Positions 8,109-15,667 of a DNA stretch of 42,850 nucleotides are shown one piece after another. Under the pieces are notes generated by a model. That model worked only from the letters and a program-made list of their open reading frames with translations. It had not been told where the DNA came from and ran no database searches. The DNA comes from a virus, in IMG/VR virus record IMGVR_UViG_3300036444_000013, positions 1 to 42,850 of that record. The stretch is one strand, 5' to 3'. Each line of letters begins with the position of its first letter. The first letter of the stretch is position 1. The position numbers and the translations under genes are program-made.

Positions 8109-9032
8109 ATGGCCAATACCAATCACACGCCGGTCGACGCGCACGCGATCGACCTTGTCAGCAAGCTCGCAGTCGAAAGCACGTTGCCGACGCTGTCCAC
8201 CATTTCCATTTCCGGGCTTGGCGACGGCCTGCCGTCTTCCGTTCCCGCCGCTTTCGACCGCAAGGAACAGGTGTTCCGTTCGGTCAAAGGCGTCATCGAG
8301 GAGTATCGCACTGCCCCTGCCCGCCGCAGGGGCGCGGCGACCGTCGACACGCTGAGCAGCTTCATCGACCTGACCAATCGCCACAAGGACGAACACTCGG
8401 CCTTGTTCGGCAAGACGTCCTGGCCGGACCCGAAGCTGACCGCCGTTCTGAACTACGACGCGAATGGCGTTGCGGCCCGGTACCGCGACCATCGCATCGT
8501 CTACGCCTTCCCGCTGACTGAGGAATTCAAAGCCTGGGTGAGTTTCAACAACAAGGGAATGGAGCAGGAAATCTTCGCGGCATTCCTGGAGGAGCATGCG
8601 GCAGAACTGTCGTCGCCGACCGATGGCGAACGTTCCGAGTATGAACGCCTGTTCAAGGAAAAAATGGCCACGCCTTCGGAGGTTGTGGCGCTGTCCCGAC
8701 ACCTCGAAGTGCATGTGAAAGCCAGGGCAAAACAGGGCATCCGCCTGCAGACCGGCGAACGCACCGTCGAGTTCGCGGAAGAACATGTGAACGCAAAAGG
8801 CGACCCGGTGGTGGTGCCGGGCATCTTCATGGTGTCGGTGCCGGCCTTCGTCGACGGCGATGCTGTTCGTATTCCTGCCCGCCTGCGCTACCGCGTGCAG
8901 GGCGACAAGGTGATGTGGCTGTACCAGCTTTATCGCTGGGAAACGTACCTGCGCGAGCAGGTCGGTCATGACCTGAAGAAAGCAGCGACCGACACCGAAC
9001 TGCCCGCCTTCGAAGGCTCGCCGGAGGCGTGA
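8109..9032 (+). CDS. DUF2303 family phage protein
   Basis: 307-aa protein matching the DUF2303 pattern common in early regions of proteobacterial phages: N-terminal ISISGLGDGLP, a central TLSSFIDLTNRHKDEHSALF segment, and a C-terminal WLYQLYRWETYLREQV. No biochemical role is established for the family; its constant place beside methyltransferase and recombination-type genes suggests DNA metabolism or protection. Clear CAAAGGA ribosome site. Its stop overlaps the next ATG. Confidence 0.8.
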   Translation: MANTNHTPVDAHAIDLVSKLAVESTLPTLSTISISGLGDGLPSSVPAAFDRKEQVFRSVKGVIEEYRTAPARRRGAATVDTLSSFIDLTNRHKDEHSALFGKTSWPDPKLTAVLNYDANGVAARYRDHRIVYAFPLTEEFKAWVSFNNKGMEQEIFAAFLEEHAAELSSPTDGERSEYERLFKEKMATPSEVVALSRHLEVHVKARAKQGIRLQTGERTVEFAEEHVNAKGDPVVVPGIFMVSVPAFVDGDAVRIPARLRYRVQGDKVMWLYQLYRWETYLREQVGHDLKKAATDTELPAFEGSPEA

Positions 9033-9712
9033 TGTCTGCTCCTTCGGCTCGCGGTCTGTTTCGCGCCACCGGCAAAAAAGCCAAGCCGGTGGCGGTACGC
9101 GTCTCCAGCGATCTTGGTGGTTCCTACGAATTCACCGAGACGAAGGATCGCGAGCCGAATGACTTCTATCCGACGCCGGTCGAGCCGACGCGGGCGTTCC
9201 TTTCAGTCGAACTGGAACGGCTGCGCGAATTTTCCGGCGTTTGGGAACCTGCCTGCGGTGATGGTGCCATGCTGCACGAATTCACCGCGGCGGGTTTGAC
9301 CGCTTTCGGATCTGATTTGATCCAGCGTGGCGCGGCGGCTGAAGTCCGCAGCTTCTACGATTATCGCGAGCCCGCCTTTCCGGCGATCGCGACCAATCCG
9401 CCATTCGCCGAGTGCAACACCGATCCGGGCTGGATTCGGCACGCGCTCGGCACGCTCGGCGTCGAATACATGGCGCTGCTGCTGCCGATGAACTGGACCG
9501 GCGCGCAGGGTCGCGCCGCGCTGTGGGCGGAGTTTCCGCCGGCCCGCGTCTACGTGATGCGCTGGCGCATCGACTTCACCGGTCAGGGCGCGCCGCCGAT
9601 GCTCAATGGCTGGTTCGTGTGGGACCGCGCGTGGCGCGGCGAAACCGTGCTGCGCATGCTCGACCGCAAGGATGTCCGGCAGGGCGAGCTTTTCAGCGAG
9701 GCGGCAGAATGA
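9032..9712 (+). CDS. Phage DNA adenine/N4-type methyltransferase
   Basis: 226-aa SAM-dependent DNA methyltransferase. The entry segment DFYPTPVEPTRAFL, an SAM-binding VWEPACGDGAML (motif I) and the catalytic NPPF (motif IV, in IATNPPFAEC) identify an amino-methyltransferase (N6-adenine or N4-cytosine). GGAGG 4 bases before ATG 9032 fixes the start; an upstream GTG is less likely. Probably protects phage DNA from host restriction or alters regulatory sites. No cognate endonuclease is adjacent, so it is an orphan enzyme. Confidence 0.85.
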   Translation: MSAPSARGLFRATGKKAKPVAVRVSSDLGGSYEFTETKDREPNDFYPTPVEPTRAFLSVELERLREFSGVWEPACGDGAMLHEFTAAGLTAFGSDLIQRGAAAEVRSFYDYREPAFPAIATNPPFAECNTDPGWIRHALGTLGVEYMALLLPMNWTGAQGRAALWAEFPPARVYVMRWRIDFTGQGAPPMLNGWFVWDRAWRGETVLRMLDRKDVRQGELFSEAAE

Positions 9713-10357: not shown

Positions 10358-10656
10358 GCTACCCGAGCGATGTCCTGGACCCGTGGGTCCTCAAAATGCG
10401 GGAGGCGGAAGACGATGCCGCCCGCGCCGAAGTGCTGTTGTCGGCCCCGGTGCTGACCCTTCTGCGCTGGAAGCCGATCTTCCGCGAAAGCTGCCGCCGC
10501 GCTGCCTTCGACGAAGGCGTGACCTATCTCGACACGCTGTCGGACACTCTGAACAGCCCGCGCCATCGCGGCAACCTCGCCGGCACCATGCCCATGGCCG
10601 GGGCGACCTCGCATCTGCTGGGTGTCCTTCACCGCGCGGGAGGCAACCATGGCTGA
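10354..10656 (+). CDS. Hypothetical phage protein (100 aa)
   Basis: 100-aa helical protein beginning MSYPSDVLDPWVLKMREAED. No motif recognised. Its start overlaps the upstream stop (ATGA) and its end overlaps the DnaA-like gene by 8 bases, so it is translated as part of the replication operon. Confidence 0.55.
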   Translation: MSYPSDVLDPWVLKMREAEDDAARAEVLLSAPVLTLLRWKPIFRESCRRAAFDEGVTYLDTLSDTLNSPRHRGNLAGTMPMAGATSHLLGVLHRAGGNHG

Positions 10657-11218
10657 ACCGGGAATGCGCAAGCTCGACCAGGGCCTGCCGCGCATCGACA
10701 TGTATTCGCCTGAATTCCGGGCGCGGCAGGCGTTGCGCCGGCAGCAGGCAACCATCGTGCCCGATACGAAGGCGACCCGCGCGGAATTGGCCAAGGATGC
10801 GCTTTCCCTGCTCGATGACGCGCGAGAAAAGGCGGACGTCATCGTTGCGGAAGCTCGTGAGGAGGCGGCGCGCATTCTCGCCGAAGCCGCCGAACAGGTC
10901 GCCACCATATTTGCGGATGCCCGCACCACCGCTGACCTGATCGTCGACCGGCTCGACGCTTCGCAAAAACCGCGCGTGACCGTGCGCGAAATCATTCGCG
11001 AGATGGCGGACCGCTTCGACGTCCGCCCGGAAGACATCACCGGGGCATGCCGCACCCGCATTGTCGTCAAGGCCCGCTGGGCGGCGATGGTTGCCGCACA
11101 CCACGCCCGGCCGGACCTCTCCACTATCGCCCTTGGTCGCGAGTTCGACCGCGACCACACCGCCGTCATCTACGCGCTGCGCAAGTCCGGCGTGCGGCCT
11201 ATGCGGGAGAAGGTCTAA
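10649..11218 (+). CDS. Coiled-coil protein with DnaA domain IV-like C-terminus
   Basis: 189-aa protein. Residues ~50-102 form a long alanine/glutamate coiled coil. Residues ~110-180 read VREIIREMADRFDVRPEDIT, then RTRIVVKARWAAMVAAHHAR, then ALGREFDRDHTAVIYALRK, matching DnaA domain IV including its RDHT-type DnaA-box recognition signature (residues ~163-177). The AAA+ ATPase domains of DnaA are absent. It could bind DnaA boxes in phage or host origin DNA, to recruit or to compete with the host initiator. The start at 10649 gives a short overlap with the upstream gene. Confidence 0.75.
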   Translation: MAEPGMRKLDQGLPRIDMYSPEFRARQALRRQQATIVPDTKATRAELAKDALSLLDDAREKADVIVAEAREEAARILAEAAEQVATIFADARTTADLIVDRLDASQKPRVTVREIIREMADRFDVRPEDITGACRTRIVVKARWAAMVAAHHARPDLSTIALGREFDRDHTAVIYALRKSGVRPMREKV

Positions 11219-13206
11219 TGCTGCTCGACTTCGATCATGGGGCCGCACAGGCCGATTATCCGCCGCTGATCTGCGACAGCTTCGCCGGTGGCGGTGGAGC
11301 CTCGACCGGCATCGAAATGGCGCTGGGGCGCTCGCCAGACATCGCCATCAACCACAACCCCGCAGCGCTGGCGCTGCATGCGGCGAACCATCCCGACACA
11401 CTGCACCTGTCGGAAAACGTGTGGAAGGTCGATCCGCTCGACTATGTCGCCGGGCGTCATGTCGGGCTGGCGTGGTTCTCGCCCGACTGCAAGCACTTCT
11501 CCAAGGCCAAGGGCGGCAAGCCGGTCGAACGCAACATCCGCGACCTGGCGTGGGTGGTGGTGATGTGGGCTGAACGCGTGCGCCCCGACGTGATCATGCT
11601 GGAGAACGTCGAGGAATTCCGCGATTGGGGGCCGCTGCGCGAGGAGACGCGCGACGGCAAGATCGTGCTGCTGCCCGATCCGGAACACAGGGGCCGCACC
11701 TTCCGCGAGTGGACGGGAAAGTTGAAGCGGCTGGGCTACAAGCTGGAACACCGCGAACTGCGCGCCTGCGACTATGGCGCGCCGACGATCCGCAAACGGC
11801 TGTTCCTGATCGCCCGATGCGACGGTCAGCCGATTGTCTGGCCGGCCCGCACGCATGGCGACCCGAACCGCGAGGATGACCGCAAGCTGATCGAAGCCGG
11901 AAAGCTGCTGCCCTATCGCACGGCGGCGGAAATCATCGACTGGTCGCTGCCCTGCCCTTCGCTGTTCGACACCAAGCAACAGATTTGGGAAAAATTCGGC
12001 CTTCGCGCCATCCGCCCGACTGCAGACGCCACGCAAAGCCGGGTGGCGCATGGCATCGGACGCTATGTGTTGCGTGCTGCTGCCGATGGCAAGCGGCCAT
12101 TTCTGGTCAGCGTGGCGCATGGCTACAGCGGCGGGCGGCGCGAATATTCGCTTGATGAAACATTCGGAGTGGTGACTGCGGGCGGCATCGCCCATGCGCT
12201 TGTCTCACCTACCCTTGTGCAGTCCGGGTATGGCGAACGGGACGGGCAAGCGCCGCGCTCGCTTAACATCGGAGCTCCACTCGGAACAGCCGTGGCGGGT
12301 GGCGTAAAGCACGCTGTCGTTGCTCCGCACCTTGCTGCTTACTACGGCAGAGGTAGCGGGTCGGTCGATCGGTCTGCTTCTGCTGAAAAACCGGTCAACA
12401 CCATTGTCACTGAGAACCGCCATGCCCTGATCGTCCCGACTTTGATCGGATGTGGCGGACGCGCTGGCCAGAGCAGGCCGCGCGGCGTTGATGAGCCGAC
12501 CGCGACGGGGACCGCGAAGGCTGATGTGTGTGTCGCAGCGGCCTTCCTGGCGCAGCACAATAACGACGACAGACGTGCCGGAGGCGTCAATCCAGGCAGG
12601 CCGGCGACTGTGCCTGTCTCCACACTTACAGCCAGCCCGCAGCAGGGCGTCGTCGCTGCGCATCTGATGAGCCTGAAGGGAAGCGAGCGCCGCGATAGGC
12701 CGGCAAACGCTCCTCATGCGGCTGTCCTGGCCGGTGGCGGACACTCGGCTATCGTTGCCCCGTTCATCGCCAAATATTACGGCGTCGAGCAGGAAAGCGG
12801 ATACGACGAACCAACGCATACGGCCACCGACAAGGCCCGGTTCGGACACGTCGAAACCGAATTTGCCTTCCCGCCCTTCACCGAAGAACAGGCCGACCGC
12901 GCCCGCGAAGTGGCGGCGTTCCTGCGCGCGCATGGCGAATGGGACGGTCGCGAGTTCGTGACGCTCGAAATCGACGGCGTCACCTTGGTGATGGTCGATA
13001 TCGGCATGCGGATGCTGAAGGCGCGCGAACTGTTCAACGCGCAAGGCTTCCCGCCGGACTACATCATCGACCTGGAGTTCAACGGCAAGCCGCTGCCGCA
13101 GTCCGATCAGATTTCGTGCTGCGGCAACAGCGTGTCGCCACCGATGGCCGCCGCCTTGGTCGCGGCCAACTGCTCGCACCTGTCTCGGTACGAGGTGGCG
13201 GCATGA
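11218..13206 (+). CDS. DNA cytosine-C5 methyltransferase
   Basis: 662-aa enzyme. Motif I is DSFAGGGGASTG (residues 20-31), motif IV is SPDC with the expected nucleophile Cys91, motif VI is ENV (129-131), motif VIII is RKRLFLIA (~192-199), and CCGNSVSPPMAAAL near the end is motif X. Motif IV lacks the usual Pro-Pro-Cys. Residues ~300-525, where a target-recognition region would lie, contain several diverged repeats of about 45 residues. ATG 11218 overlaps the previous stop (TAATG). Probable role: self-protection against restriction. Confidence 0.88.
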   Translation: MLLDFDHGAAQADYPPLICDSFAGGGGASTGIEMALGRSPDIAINHNPAALALHAANHPDTLHLSENVWKVDPLDYVAGRHVGLAWFSPDCKHFSKAKGGKPVERNIRDLAWVVVMWAERVRPDVIMLENVEEFRDWGPLREETRDGKIVLLPDPEHRGRTFREWTGKLKRLGYKLEHRELRACDYGAPTIRKRLFLIARCDGQPIVWPARTHGDPNREDDRKLIEAGKLLPYRTAAEIIDWSLPCPSLFDTKQQIWEKFGLRAIRPTADATQSRVAHGIGRYVLRAAADGKRPFLVSVAHGYSGGRREYSLDETFGVVTAGGIAHALVSPTLVQSGYGERDGQAPRSLNIGAPLGTAVAGGVKHAVVAPHLAAYYGRGSGSVDRSASAEKPVNTIVTENRHALIVPTLIGCGGRAGQSRPRGVDEPTATGTAKADVCVAAAFLAQHNNDDRRAGGVNPGRPATVPVSTLTASPQQGVVAAHLMSLKGSERRDRPANAPHAAVLAGGGHSAIVAPFIAKYYGVEQESGYDEPTHTATDKARFGHVETEFAFPPFTEEQADRAREVAAFLRAHGEWDGREFVTLEIDGVTLVMVDIGMRMLKARELFNAQGFPPDYIIDLEFNGKPLPQSDQISCCGNSVSPPMAAALVAANCSHLSRYEVAA

Positions 13207-13349: not shown

Positions 13350-13876
13350 ACGCGGCCACCCTTTCCCCGGATGCCAAGCACCTGCTTTCCATTCGCCGCA
13401 GCGTCGAGCAGATCGCGCCGGGCGACTGGACGCCGGTTCATGGCGAGCATGGCGCGTTCATCGAGGCGCGTGCCGATTTCGGCGAAATCGTCGTGCTGGC
13501 ACGCTTCGACCCGGAAGCCAGCGTCGACGAAATCGCCTTCGCAGCCGGCGCGCCGGATACTGTGCGGTTCCTGCTGCGGCTGCTCGACACGGCATTCACC
13601 GAAATCCGCAGGCTGAAAGGGCTCGACCAGACCAGCCAGCCGCCGCGCAAGGACTATGCCGCCGAATGCTCGATGAAATGCGCGGAACCGGGATTTCTCC
13701 GCTTCCTGGCGGACCGGCACGGACTTGAAGCGCCGCTGACCAAGGATCGCGCAGCACAGAAGGTGCGCGGCCTGCTCGGCGTCGGAACTCGCAAAGAACT
13801 GAACGAAGGCGGACGCGCCGAAGCGGCCTGGAAGGCCCTGCGCGCCGAATTCGACGCCTGGAGGAAGAAGCCATGA
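13346..13876 (+). CDS. Hypothetical early protein (176 aa)
   Basis: 176-aa protein. The N-terminal part is of mixed strand/helix (IAPGDWTPVHGEHGAFIEAR, then GEIVVLARF). The C-terminal part (RKDYAAECSMKCAEPGFLRF, then LTKDRAAQKVRGLLGV) resembles segments found in phage proteins next to replication genes. No named family. Coupled by ATGA to the initiator gene, which places it in DNA replication or its control. Confidence 0.6.
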   Translation: MNAATLSPDAKHLLSIRRSVEQIAPGDWTPVHGEHGAFIEARADFGEIVVLARFDPEASVDEIAFAAGAPDTVRFLLRLLDTAFTEIRRLKGLDQTSQPPRKDYAAECSMKCAEPGFLRFLADRHGLEAPLTKDRAAQKVRGLLGVGTRKELNEGGRAEAAWKALRAEFDAWRKKP

Positions 13877-15009
13877 ACGGCCCGCGTCTTTCCATCATTC
13901 CGGCGCGCGCCGCCACCGATCCGGCCTTGAAGCCGCGCGACCTGCAGGTGCTGTGCGTGCTGGGCCGCCATACCGACGAACTTGGCTGGTGCCGTAAGAG
14001 CCAGGTCAAGATGTCCGATGAAATGGGCTGCGCGCGCGCCACCGTCTATGAGGCGATCGAACGGCTGGTCAAGGCCGGCTATCTGGAACGCTACGTGCAG
14101 GAAGAACAGAACGGGCGCGACAGTCCGCATGTCTATCGCGTCATCCTCGACCCGAAACACCCCGACCCGTCGAGCGTTCGCGATGCCGATTTCGACGGCG
14201 TGGACCCTGCCGCTATGTCGGCACCCCCTGCCGGTATACCGGCACCCCCTGCCGGTCCTAGACCGGCACCCCCTGCCGGTTCTGGACCGGCACCTAAGAA
14301 CGACAGTTCTAGAACGTTTATTCAGAACGATATCGAGAAAGAACGCGAGCGCGAGGAAAACCAGAAAGCGGTCAAGGTCTGGCTGAAGAAGACGCATCCG
14401 TCCTGGCCAAGCTTTGTCAGCGACAGCGAGCCGAAGGCGCTTGCCGCGGCGCTGGCGCTGACCGATGAGGAGCGCACGCAGGCCGCCGACCGCATGGCCG
14501 ACTATCTGGCCAGCGCCAAGGTCGGCGGACGGACCGTCATCTGCACGTTCGCCGTCTACCTGTCGGAAAAGCGCTGGCAGAAGCTGCCGGAGAAGGTGAG
14601 CCGTCCGGCACAGACAGACGGCTACGGTCCCGCGTTCGGGCCGGTGTGGGCGGCTTGGCGCATGCTGCGCCTGCTCAACGGTCCGGAAATTGCCGACGCA
14701 ACGACGCCGGAAAGCCGGTGGCCAACCGTGGCGGCAGTGCATGTCAGGGCACGGCGCGGTCAGGGTCATGACTTCGGTGAGCGCTTCCATGCTCTGAAAC
14801 CGCTCATGGTCGCGGTGCCTGTCGGGTCCGACATGTGGCAGCGCTGGCAGGCCGAACACCTCGTGCAGGGCTGGCCATGGCTTCCCGATCCGGGTTCGCA
14901 GCCTGTCGTCTACTTCCCGGCCGGCGGGCCGGAAGGGTTGGAAGCGTTCAAGGCCGATGTGGCGCGAGGAAGTCAGGATGATGCGAATGGACGTGAAGCG
15001 GCTGCATGA
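13873..15009 (+). CDS. Winged-helix replication initiator-like protein carrying internal iterons
   Basis: 378-aa protein. Residues ~15-90 form a winged helix (LQVLCVLGRHTDELGWCRKS, then MGCARATVYEAIERLVKAGY), as in phage O-like and RepA-like initiators. Residues ~115-140 are a Pro-Ala-rich linker with APPAG repeats, encoded by palindromic DNA iterons. The C-terminal ~210 residues are helical and may contact a helicase loader. Iterons inside an initiator gene followed by AT-richer DNA copy the lambda O/ori layout. Initiator function is inferred from the HTH and this layout. Its end overlaps the NusG-like gene by 32 bases. Confidence 0.7.
   Translation: MNGPRLSIIPARAATDPALKPRDLQVLCVLGRHTDELGWCRKSQVKMSDEMGCARATVYEAIERLVKAGYLERYVQEEQNGRDSPHVYRVILDPKHPDPSSVRDADFDGVDPAAMSAPPAGIPAPPAGPRPAPPAGSGPAPKNDSSRTFIQNDIEKEREREENQKAVKVWLKKTHPSWPSFVSDSEPKALAAALALTDEERTQAADRMADYLASAKVGGRTVICTFAVYLSEKRWQKLPEKVSRPAQTDGYGPAFGPVWAAWRMLRLLNGPEIADATTPESRWPTVAAVHVRARRGQGHDFGERFHALKPLMVAVPVGSDMWQRWQAEHLVQGWPWLPDPGSQPVVYFPAGGPEGLEAFKADVARGSQDDANGREAAA
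14217..14295. repeat. Palindromic iterons, probable replication origin
   Basis: Two perfect copies of ACCGGCACCCCCTGCCGGT (14238-14256 and 14262-14280), itself an inverted repeat with 7-bp arms and a CCCCC centre. A near-perfect copy lies at 14217-14235 and a left half at 14286-14295. Spacing is 21, 24 and 24 bases, about two helical turns. The following ~45 bases (14296-14340) are AT-richer than the neighbourhood, as expected for an unwinding element. Origin function is inferred by analogy with lambda. Confidence 0.7.
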
Positions 15010-15667
15010 GGCGGAACGGACTTGGATTGCGCCCGACACGGGCGAAATCATCAACATCGACCGCGCCTGGCAGGCCAGCGACAGGCGAATCGCCATCTCG
15101 CAAAGGCAGCGTGCTTTGCTCGCTGCGGCTGGTCAGGACGGCCCGGAAGCGCGCTGGTATGTGCTTTCGGTCGGTCAGGGCGCTGATAATTGCGTGAATA
15201 ACCTGTTGGCGGATGCGAAAATCGAACACTGGATGGCGCAGCAAACCATCGTTGTTCGTCGTCGTGGCCGGTACGGAATGGAGCGTCCGAAGGACAAAAC
15301 AGTGCCCTTCCTGCCGGGCTATATCTTCGTGAAAGTGGTGTGGTGCATGCCCTGCTGGGAGGCTCTTTCGGGGCTGAAAGGCGTGCTGGGTATCGTTGGC
15401 GGCGTCGAGCGTCCGCCCTATGTCGATGACGCTAAGGTGTTGAAAATGCGTGCAGACATCGAGAATGACCCTGAAGCGGTGAAGGCGATGTTGCGCGCAA
15501 TCAATCCGGGCGACAGGGTGAGCGTGGACGATGGTCCGTTTTCGTCCTTCCCCGGTGTCGTCGACACGGTCAACGAGAACACCGGCAGGGCCAAGGTCGA
15601 GGTGCTTATCTTCGGTCGCGTTGTGTCCGTAGACTTGGCCATTGCGCACATCAGCAAAACGTTCTAG
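14978..15667 (+). CDS. NusG-like transcription antitermination protein
   Basis: 229-aa protein. Residues ~60-160 have NGN-domain features: a WYVLSVGQG strand, LPGYIFVKVV (the LFPGYIF-type motif) and GVLGIVGGVERP. Residues ~178-229 form a KOW-type domain with GDRVSVDDGPFSSFPGVV and VLIFGRVVSVDL. That is the NusG/RfaH layout. Lying between the replication module and the packaging genes, it probably lets polymerase read through into the late operon, replacing a lambda Q-type protein. ATG 14978 has AGGA 7 bases upstream; ATG at 14981 or 14987 is possible. Confidence 0.8.
   Translation: MMRMDVKRLHEAERTWIAPDTGEIINIDRAWQASDRRIAISQRQRALLAAAGQDGPEARWYVLSVGQGADNCVNNLLADAKIEHWMAQQTIVVRRRGRYGMERPKDKTVPFLPGYIFVKVVWCMPCWEALSGLKGVLGIVGGVERPPYVDDAKVLKMRADIENDPEAVKAMLRAINPGDRVSVDDGPFSSFPGVVDTVNENTGRAKVEVLIFGRVVSVDLAIAHISKTF

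Follow-up and report, generated by a model that had tools for sequence, protein, structure and literature searches.

The replication initiator gene and its surroundings

The DNA considered here, called the window throughout, comprises a single IMG/VR virus record, 42,850 bases long. Its gene order is lambda-like: an integrase, a CI-type repressor and a CII-like activator are followed by a replication module with methyltransferases, then by the initiator, a NusG-like gene and an HNH nuclease, after which come the terminase and portal genes (picked by eye from the list of open reading frames). The initiator gene (13873–15009, + strand) encodes 378 amino acids, nearly all of which (residues 8–368) are covered by a match to phrog_270, 'replication initiation protein' (E 4e-40); a Pfam scan matches its N terminus to HTH_36 (E 3e-6). 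These matches bear out a first-pass annotation, which had placed a set of repeats inside a winged-helix initiator gene. The N-terminal winged-helix domain (13873–14160, +) was modelled with AlphaFold (pLDDT 85, pTM 0.78), and in this model the recognition helix comprises residues 55–68. The C-terminal domain (14368–15006, +) is common to genes with different N domains; searches by sequence, and by fold against a structure library, returned no match to it.

The NusG-like gene (14957–15667, +; PF02357, E 3e-12; phrog_6386, E 8e-40) begins before the initiator gene ends, and in most annotated relatives it likewise lies directly downstream of the initiator, usually overlapping it. Its product may serve the late operon as a phage-specific antiterminator. 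Among those genes of the replication module that were scanned, none could be recognised as encoding a helicase or a helicase loader. The module does contain a small protein (10622–11218, +) with a C-terminal DNA-binding domain like domain IV of DnaA (Bac_DnaA_C, E 9e-14) and no AAA+ part, a possible decoy or helper of host DnaA. Two methyltransferase-type genes lie upstream of the initiator (11047–13206 and 9029–9712, both +), a C5 cytosine methylase and a phrog_799 DNA methyltransferase; a cytosine methylase is found near the initiator in most annotated relatives as well.

A dyad array between the two domains

The region linking the two domains carries four spaced dyads between 14208 and 14292, all described on the + strand. 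Dyad 1 (14208–14223; TGCCGCT-AT-GTCGGCA, TGCCGCTatGTCGGCA) is degenerate, and dyads 2 (14229–14244; TGCCGGT-AT-ACCGGCA), 3 (14250–14268; TGCCGGT-CCTAG-ACCGGCA) and 4 (14274–14292; TGCCGGT-TCTGG-ACCGGCA) follow it. Written as half-sites, the array reads TGCCGCTatGTCGGCA-C5-TGCCGGTatACCGGCA-C5-TGCCGGTcctagACCGGCA-C5-TGCCGGTtctggACCGGCA, with dyad starts at 14208, 14229, 14250 and 14274 and centres 21, 22.5 and 24 bp apart. The first-pass annotation had described the same DNA as three palindromic 19-bp iterons spaced 21–24 bases. The 19-bp repeats are present where it had put them (GTCGGCACCCCCTGCCGGT at 14217–14235, ACCGGCACCCCCTGCCGGT at 14238–14256 and 14262–14280) and their spacing is indeed 21 and 24; all three are real, but the count fell short, as the more degenerate dyad at 14208 makes a fourth. 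A relaxed form of the 19-mer, CCGGCAN5TGCCGG with at most one mismatch, has six occurrences in the window, where shuffles predict 0.41, and three of the six are in the array. No strict dyad was found elsewhere in the 42,850 bases.

The register of the repeat is where the earlier description does not hold. It had centred the 19-mers on the C tracts, but covariation favours dyads centred on the AT, CCTAG and TCTGG spacers. Among relatives with the TGCCG half-site, position 7 across the 2- or 5-bp spacer gives TA 172, CG 31, TG 62 and CA 29 times, and Watson-Crick odds ratios across the spacer-centred dyad are about 3.0 at position 7 and 2.5 at position 6. Across the C tract the outer position gives AT 93, GC 5, GT 78 and AC 37, so that Watson-Crick pairing in the C-tract-centred register is anti-correlated (odds ratio about 0.16 from these pair counts), and this register was rejected. 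Because the varying positions covary across the spacer and not across the C tract, the likelier repeat unit, judged from these alignments, is TGCCGGT-n2/n5-ACCGGCA with C5 tracts between dyads, and the spacer-centred dyad is the likelier binding unit. Nearly half of the dyads have the 2-nt spacer. Within the TGCCG class the TGCCG core is invariant, a pattern that a protein site would show and an RNA stem would not.

An AT-rich segment, AACG boxes and a purine tract

Directly after the last dyad lies an AT-rich stretch (14293–14339, +), which contains the gene's least stable 45 bp and is likely a DNA unwinding element. The AT-richer DNA noted earlier after the iterons is thus confirmed, with an AT content of 64% versus 35% in the gene; the 45-mer of lowest stability in the window's initiator gene begins at about 14295. 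The same holds more widely: in 99 genes the 45-bp segment following the last dyad has 54% AT versus 38% for the gene, and in 62 of them it is there that the gene's least stable 45-mer begins. Within this stretch are three AACG boxes (all +): box 1 at 14299–14302 (AGAACGAC), box 2 at 14313–14316 (AGAACGTT), 14 bp from box 1 and in a different codon phase, and box 3 at 14326–14329 (AGAACGAT), 13 bp from box 2. Most relatives have three such boxes 13–15 bp apart in codon phases 0/2/1, 0/2/0 or 0/1/1, and AACG occurs 244 times against 132 expected. Because the codon phases vary, the boxes are kept as DNA and not as peptide.

A purine-rich tract (14335–14357, +) completes the site; it is degenerate in the window (GAGAAAGAACGCGAG) and reads GAGAGAGAG in relatives, where a GAGAGAG tract comes after the AACG boxes. 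In the 99 genes GAGAGA occurs 153 times versus 11 in synonymous shuffles, and in the tract AGA makes up 32% of arginine codons versus 2.5% elsewhere. The site as first outlined, iterons plus AT-richer DNA, was correct in those parts but too small, the actual site extending over the AACG boxes and the GA tract.

Several other features were sought in and around this region. The CtrA box is TTAA-N7-TTAA. CtrA boxes were considered as an account of the TTAACG boxes and were rejected on their spacing of 13–15 bp and on the AGAACG of the window. CcrM sites (GANTC) are not enriched in the array (75 versus 71 expected). Over the whole gene, GANTC stands at about half of what synonymous shuffles predict (186 versus 385 in 99 class-A initiator genes), a depletion that is absent from the origin segment of the same genes (75 versus 71). 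A promoter and terminator scan yielded nothing of note, with no promoter-like site near the repeats. GC skew, put forward earlier as a check on the origin, does turn positive near 14 kb, but weakly.

Conservation as DNA among relatives

The exact 19-mer is present in 42 viral contigs; apart from L011, a chance match, each of them has the array and a gene for a relative of the initiator. A search by 19-mer is biased towards DNA; relatives were refetched by protein patterns, for the N domain and the C domain separately. Scans with a single protein had at first given only one relative each, and alignments were used instead. Inverted repeats were counted when perfect, with an arm of 7 or more and a loop of 8 or less, in a set of 101 distinct genes that encode the N domain; these overlap partly with the loci of the 19-mer search and many are related, so that the counts are not independent events. 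Linkers hold 2.64 palindromes each versus 0.32 in synonymous-codon shuffles, an excess of about 8-fold, and the density of inverted repeats is 8.5 per kb in linkers versus 0.86 elsewhere in the gene. The comparison of homologues proposed in the first-pass annotation, asking whether palindromes are conserved beyond codon needs, therefore came out in favour of the origin, and an APPAG linker without palindromes was not found among the homologues. A few genes (L087, L120, L132 and L207) have weak dyads without a perfect 7-bp arm.

The iterons do encode the APPAG linker here, as had been proposed, but the peptide appears to be a by-product. Some C5 tracts in L036/L040 and L218 read G5 in the coding strand, which turns PP into GG and leaves the dyads intact; APPAG is replaced by AGGAG in L036 and L218, and other classes carry other peptides. 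The phases of the AACG boxes vary and the C tracts flip to G, which argues that the linker is conserved as DNA and not as peptide. Outside viral contigs, the pattern was found in 5 of 397 Hyphomicrobiales genomes, in all five inside this initiator gene, and the reversed control gave 0 matches. A plasmid collection gave only two matches, both partial and to the N domain.

Coupling of the recognition helix to the half-site

At base 5 of the half-site, 84 genes have G, 14 have C and 3 have A, and a single N-domain column, residue 60 of the window's initiator, splits these three groups completely, although about 90 columns were tested and one perfect column is accordingly less striking than it would be alone. 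Residue 60, which sits in the modelled recognition helix, is R with TGCCC (14 of 14 genes, which form one clade that carries much of the signal, relatives not being independent) and N, N and G with TGCCA (3 of 3); in the 84 TGCCG genes it falls outside these groups and is mostly A, D, E or S. The TGCCA half-site is found in two separate lineages, L111/L130 lying among TGCCC relatives (about 80% identity) and L122 among TGCCG relatives (82% identity). The alignments thus make a strong case, short of proof, that residue 60 and base 5 are coupled.

Exchange of the N-terminal half together with its repeats

Genes with a related C domain and unrelated-looking N domains have their own repeats at the same place, for example GTGTCACCGGTGACAC, CCGTCGACGG, TGTCCAGAATCTGGACA or TGGTGGA-type sites. 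In these other classes the iterons are followed by short AT-rich repeats (for example GTAAGGGAACCA GTAAGAGAACCA GTAATTGAGAGAG) and then by GAGAGAG, and their linkers, fetched by the C-domain protein pattern, hold 1.29 palindromes versus 0.16 in synonymous shuffles. Three different N domains occur in four genes whose C-domain residues are 95–98% shared: L146 and L159 belong to class B, L147 to class F and L148 to class C. In the DNA of these otherwise near-identical prophages, two stretches of about 90–94% identity, one ending at the start codon and the other running on from TGAGAGAG, enclose a segment in which they do not match; in the L146/L147 pair the left-hand match stops one gene earlier. 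The breakpoints of this block of ~440 bp are the start codon and TGAGAGAG, and L167/L173 have the same right-hand joint in another background. Since identity flanks the unmatched ~440 bp, N domain, iterons and unwinding repeats were exchanged whole, and from such alignments we infer that the three form one exchangeable specificity cassette.

It is possible, though we hold it to be somewhat less probable than the contrary, that alphaproteobacterial temperate phages keep a pool of origin cassettes of ~440 bp, at least six in number and interchangeable, with fixed joints at the start codon and GAGAGAG and a common C-terminal helicase-recruiting domain, and that swapping is selected, for example because it lets a phage evade resident prophages, satellites or origin-targeting defences that interfere with its replication.

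A candidate replication origin and other readings of the locus

Anatomy, conservation as DNA, coupling to the N domain and exchange as a unit are established at the level of sequence. Taken together they argue that the array, the AT-rich segment and the tract are a phage replication origin inside its own initiator gene, a reading to which we give a probability of about 0.88. The four dyads, spaced at about two helical turns, would be occupied by dimers of the N-terminal winged-helix domain, with wrapping or bending of the DNA; melting would follow in the AT-rich AACG repeats next to them, with the initiator holding one strand. The C-terminal domain may bring in the host helicase or its loader, and this recruitment would start theta replication.

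The dyads could instead be operators, controlling transcription of their own operon or copy number, or a partition-like site, with replication starting elsewhere. A MarR-like winged helix can be a regulator, and a protein sitting on intragenic dyads could block transcription. However, the AT-rich segment with its 12–14-bp repeats and the purine tract are kept in nearly every N-domain class, and a repressor site has no need of them; the lack of a promoter-like site near the repeats, and of any other strict dyad in the window, also makes an operator role with replication starting elsewhere improbable. The palindromes might also act in mRNA, as hairpins for translation control or antitermination. 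The NusG-like gene comes next, RNA of the + strand gives a strong fold (z -6.8), and G-U-type combinations are frequent at dyad positions 6–7, but any palindrome array folds well, and an Rfam search gave no match. That the TGCCG core is invariant and does not covary, that so many dyads have a spacer of only 2 nt, that A-C mismatches are also present, and that half-site base 5 shifts in step with a recognition-helix residue together leave an RNA role very unlikely. Least probable of all is that the repeats have no function as DNA and were kept for the APPAG peptide or arose by slippage. All class-A genes do read the array in the same frame, but the excess of palindromes over synonymous shuffles already contradicts this explanation, as do the change of PP to GG where a tract flips strand, the different palindromes encoding unrelated peptides in other classes, and the shifting codon phase of the AACG boxes.

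Relation to known origins

The putative origin follows the plan of lambda ori inside gene O, as the first-pass annotation had recognised; gene O has four 18-bp iterons spaced 20, 24 and 23 bp. In lambda and other lambdoid phages the initiator consists of an N-terminal DNA-binding part and a C-terminal partner-binding part (PMC6022878, PMC7466680). Four dyads of ~18 bp, spaced 20–24 bp, lie mid-gene between the N and C domains and are directly followed by an easily melted AT-rich stretch, as here, and the lambda-type association of iteron sequence with the N domain, the C domain being exchangeable, is also seen here. This site departs from lambda ori as follows: its iterons have another sequence, its dyads contain 2- or 5-bp spacers and are linked through C or G tracts, and downstream of them lie three AACG ~14-mers and a GA tract; the C-terminal domain is without known relative, and the initiator gene is followed by a NusG-like gene and not by a P-type helicase loader gene. 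The O-like phrog_391 matches residues 17–166 only, and weakly (E 9e-9), phrog_270 being the best match and covering the whole protein. Because the C domain is unmatched and the NusG-like gene comes next, the initiator was not filed as a member of the lambda O group.

By TM-score, the best fold matches of the N domain include 4pt7 ('Structure of initiator') and 4pql (TM 0.62–0.63), both of which we take to be the N domain of a RepA_N initiator. The likeness of the winged helix to this fold is loose (E 7e-3), and a Pfam scan of the initiator contained no RepA_N domain. In RepA_N plasmids (pSK41, pPR9) the origin likewise lies centrally within rep, and in pPR9 a block of ~500 bp comprising the N domain and the origin has been naturally replaced, the C-terminal part remaining >97% identical (PMC5703833). 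The present system differs in belonging to a phage and not a plasmid, in its Gram-negative hosts and in its repeats. The Pfam scan likewise contained no Rep_3-type domain. The iteron plasmids RK2 and F have direct repeats instead of dyads, located outside rep. Their iterons, as here, adjoin an AT-rich region with repeats, in which 13-mers or 8-mers are held single-stranded by the initiator (PMC4081077).

An origin inside an initiator gene and the exchange of a specificity half are thus already known kinds of arrangement. As far as the open literature shows, what is new is the putative origin of this phage family, its anatomy of dyads, AACG boxes and GA tract, the coupling of residue to base, and the breadth of the cassette pool. 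A description of this origin was not found among the openly accessible papers searched; one of them records a 'putative replication initiation protein' as a prediction only and mentions no origin (PMC5537653). A precise, testable candidate origin can now be assigned to a large and widespread alphaproteobacterial prophage family annotated only under that name, and its natural series of protein/iteron pairs, differing in one residue and one base, makes an initiator recognition code directly testable. The clean cassette swaps mark origin specificity as a recombining module and suggest selection on replication compatibility; in lambda, ectopic copies of the origin arrest the phage (PMC4488673). 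The phages with this apparent origin are phages of soil bacteria, and relatives have swapped the whole cassette of protein and start site. In one relative (L048; PP395642, 'Nostoc phage Nsp-JY10') the initiator and array are almost the same as in L046 and akin to those of alphaproteobacterial prophages; its stated cyanobacterial host may be wrong, a companion bacterium being a possible host.
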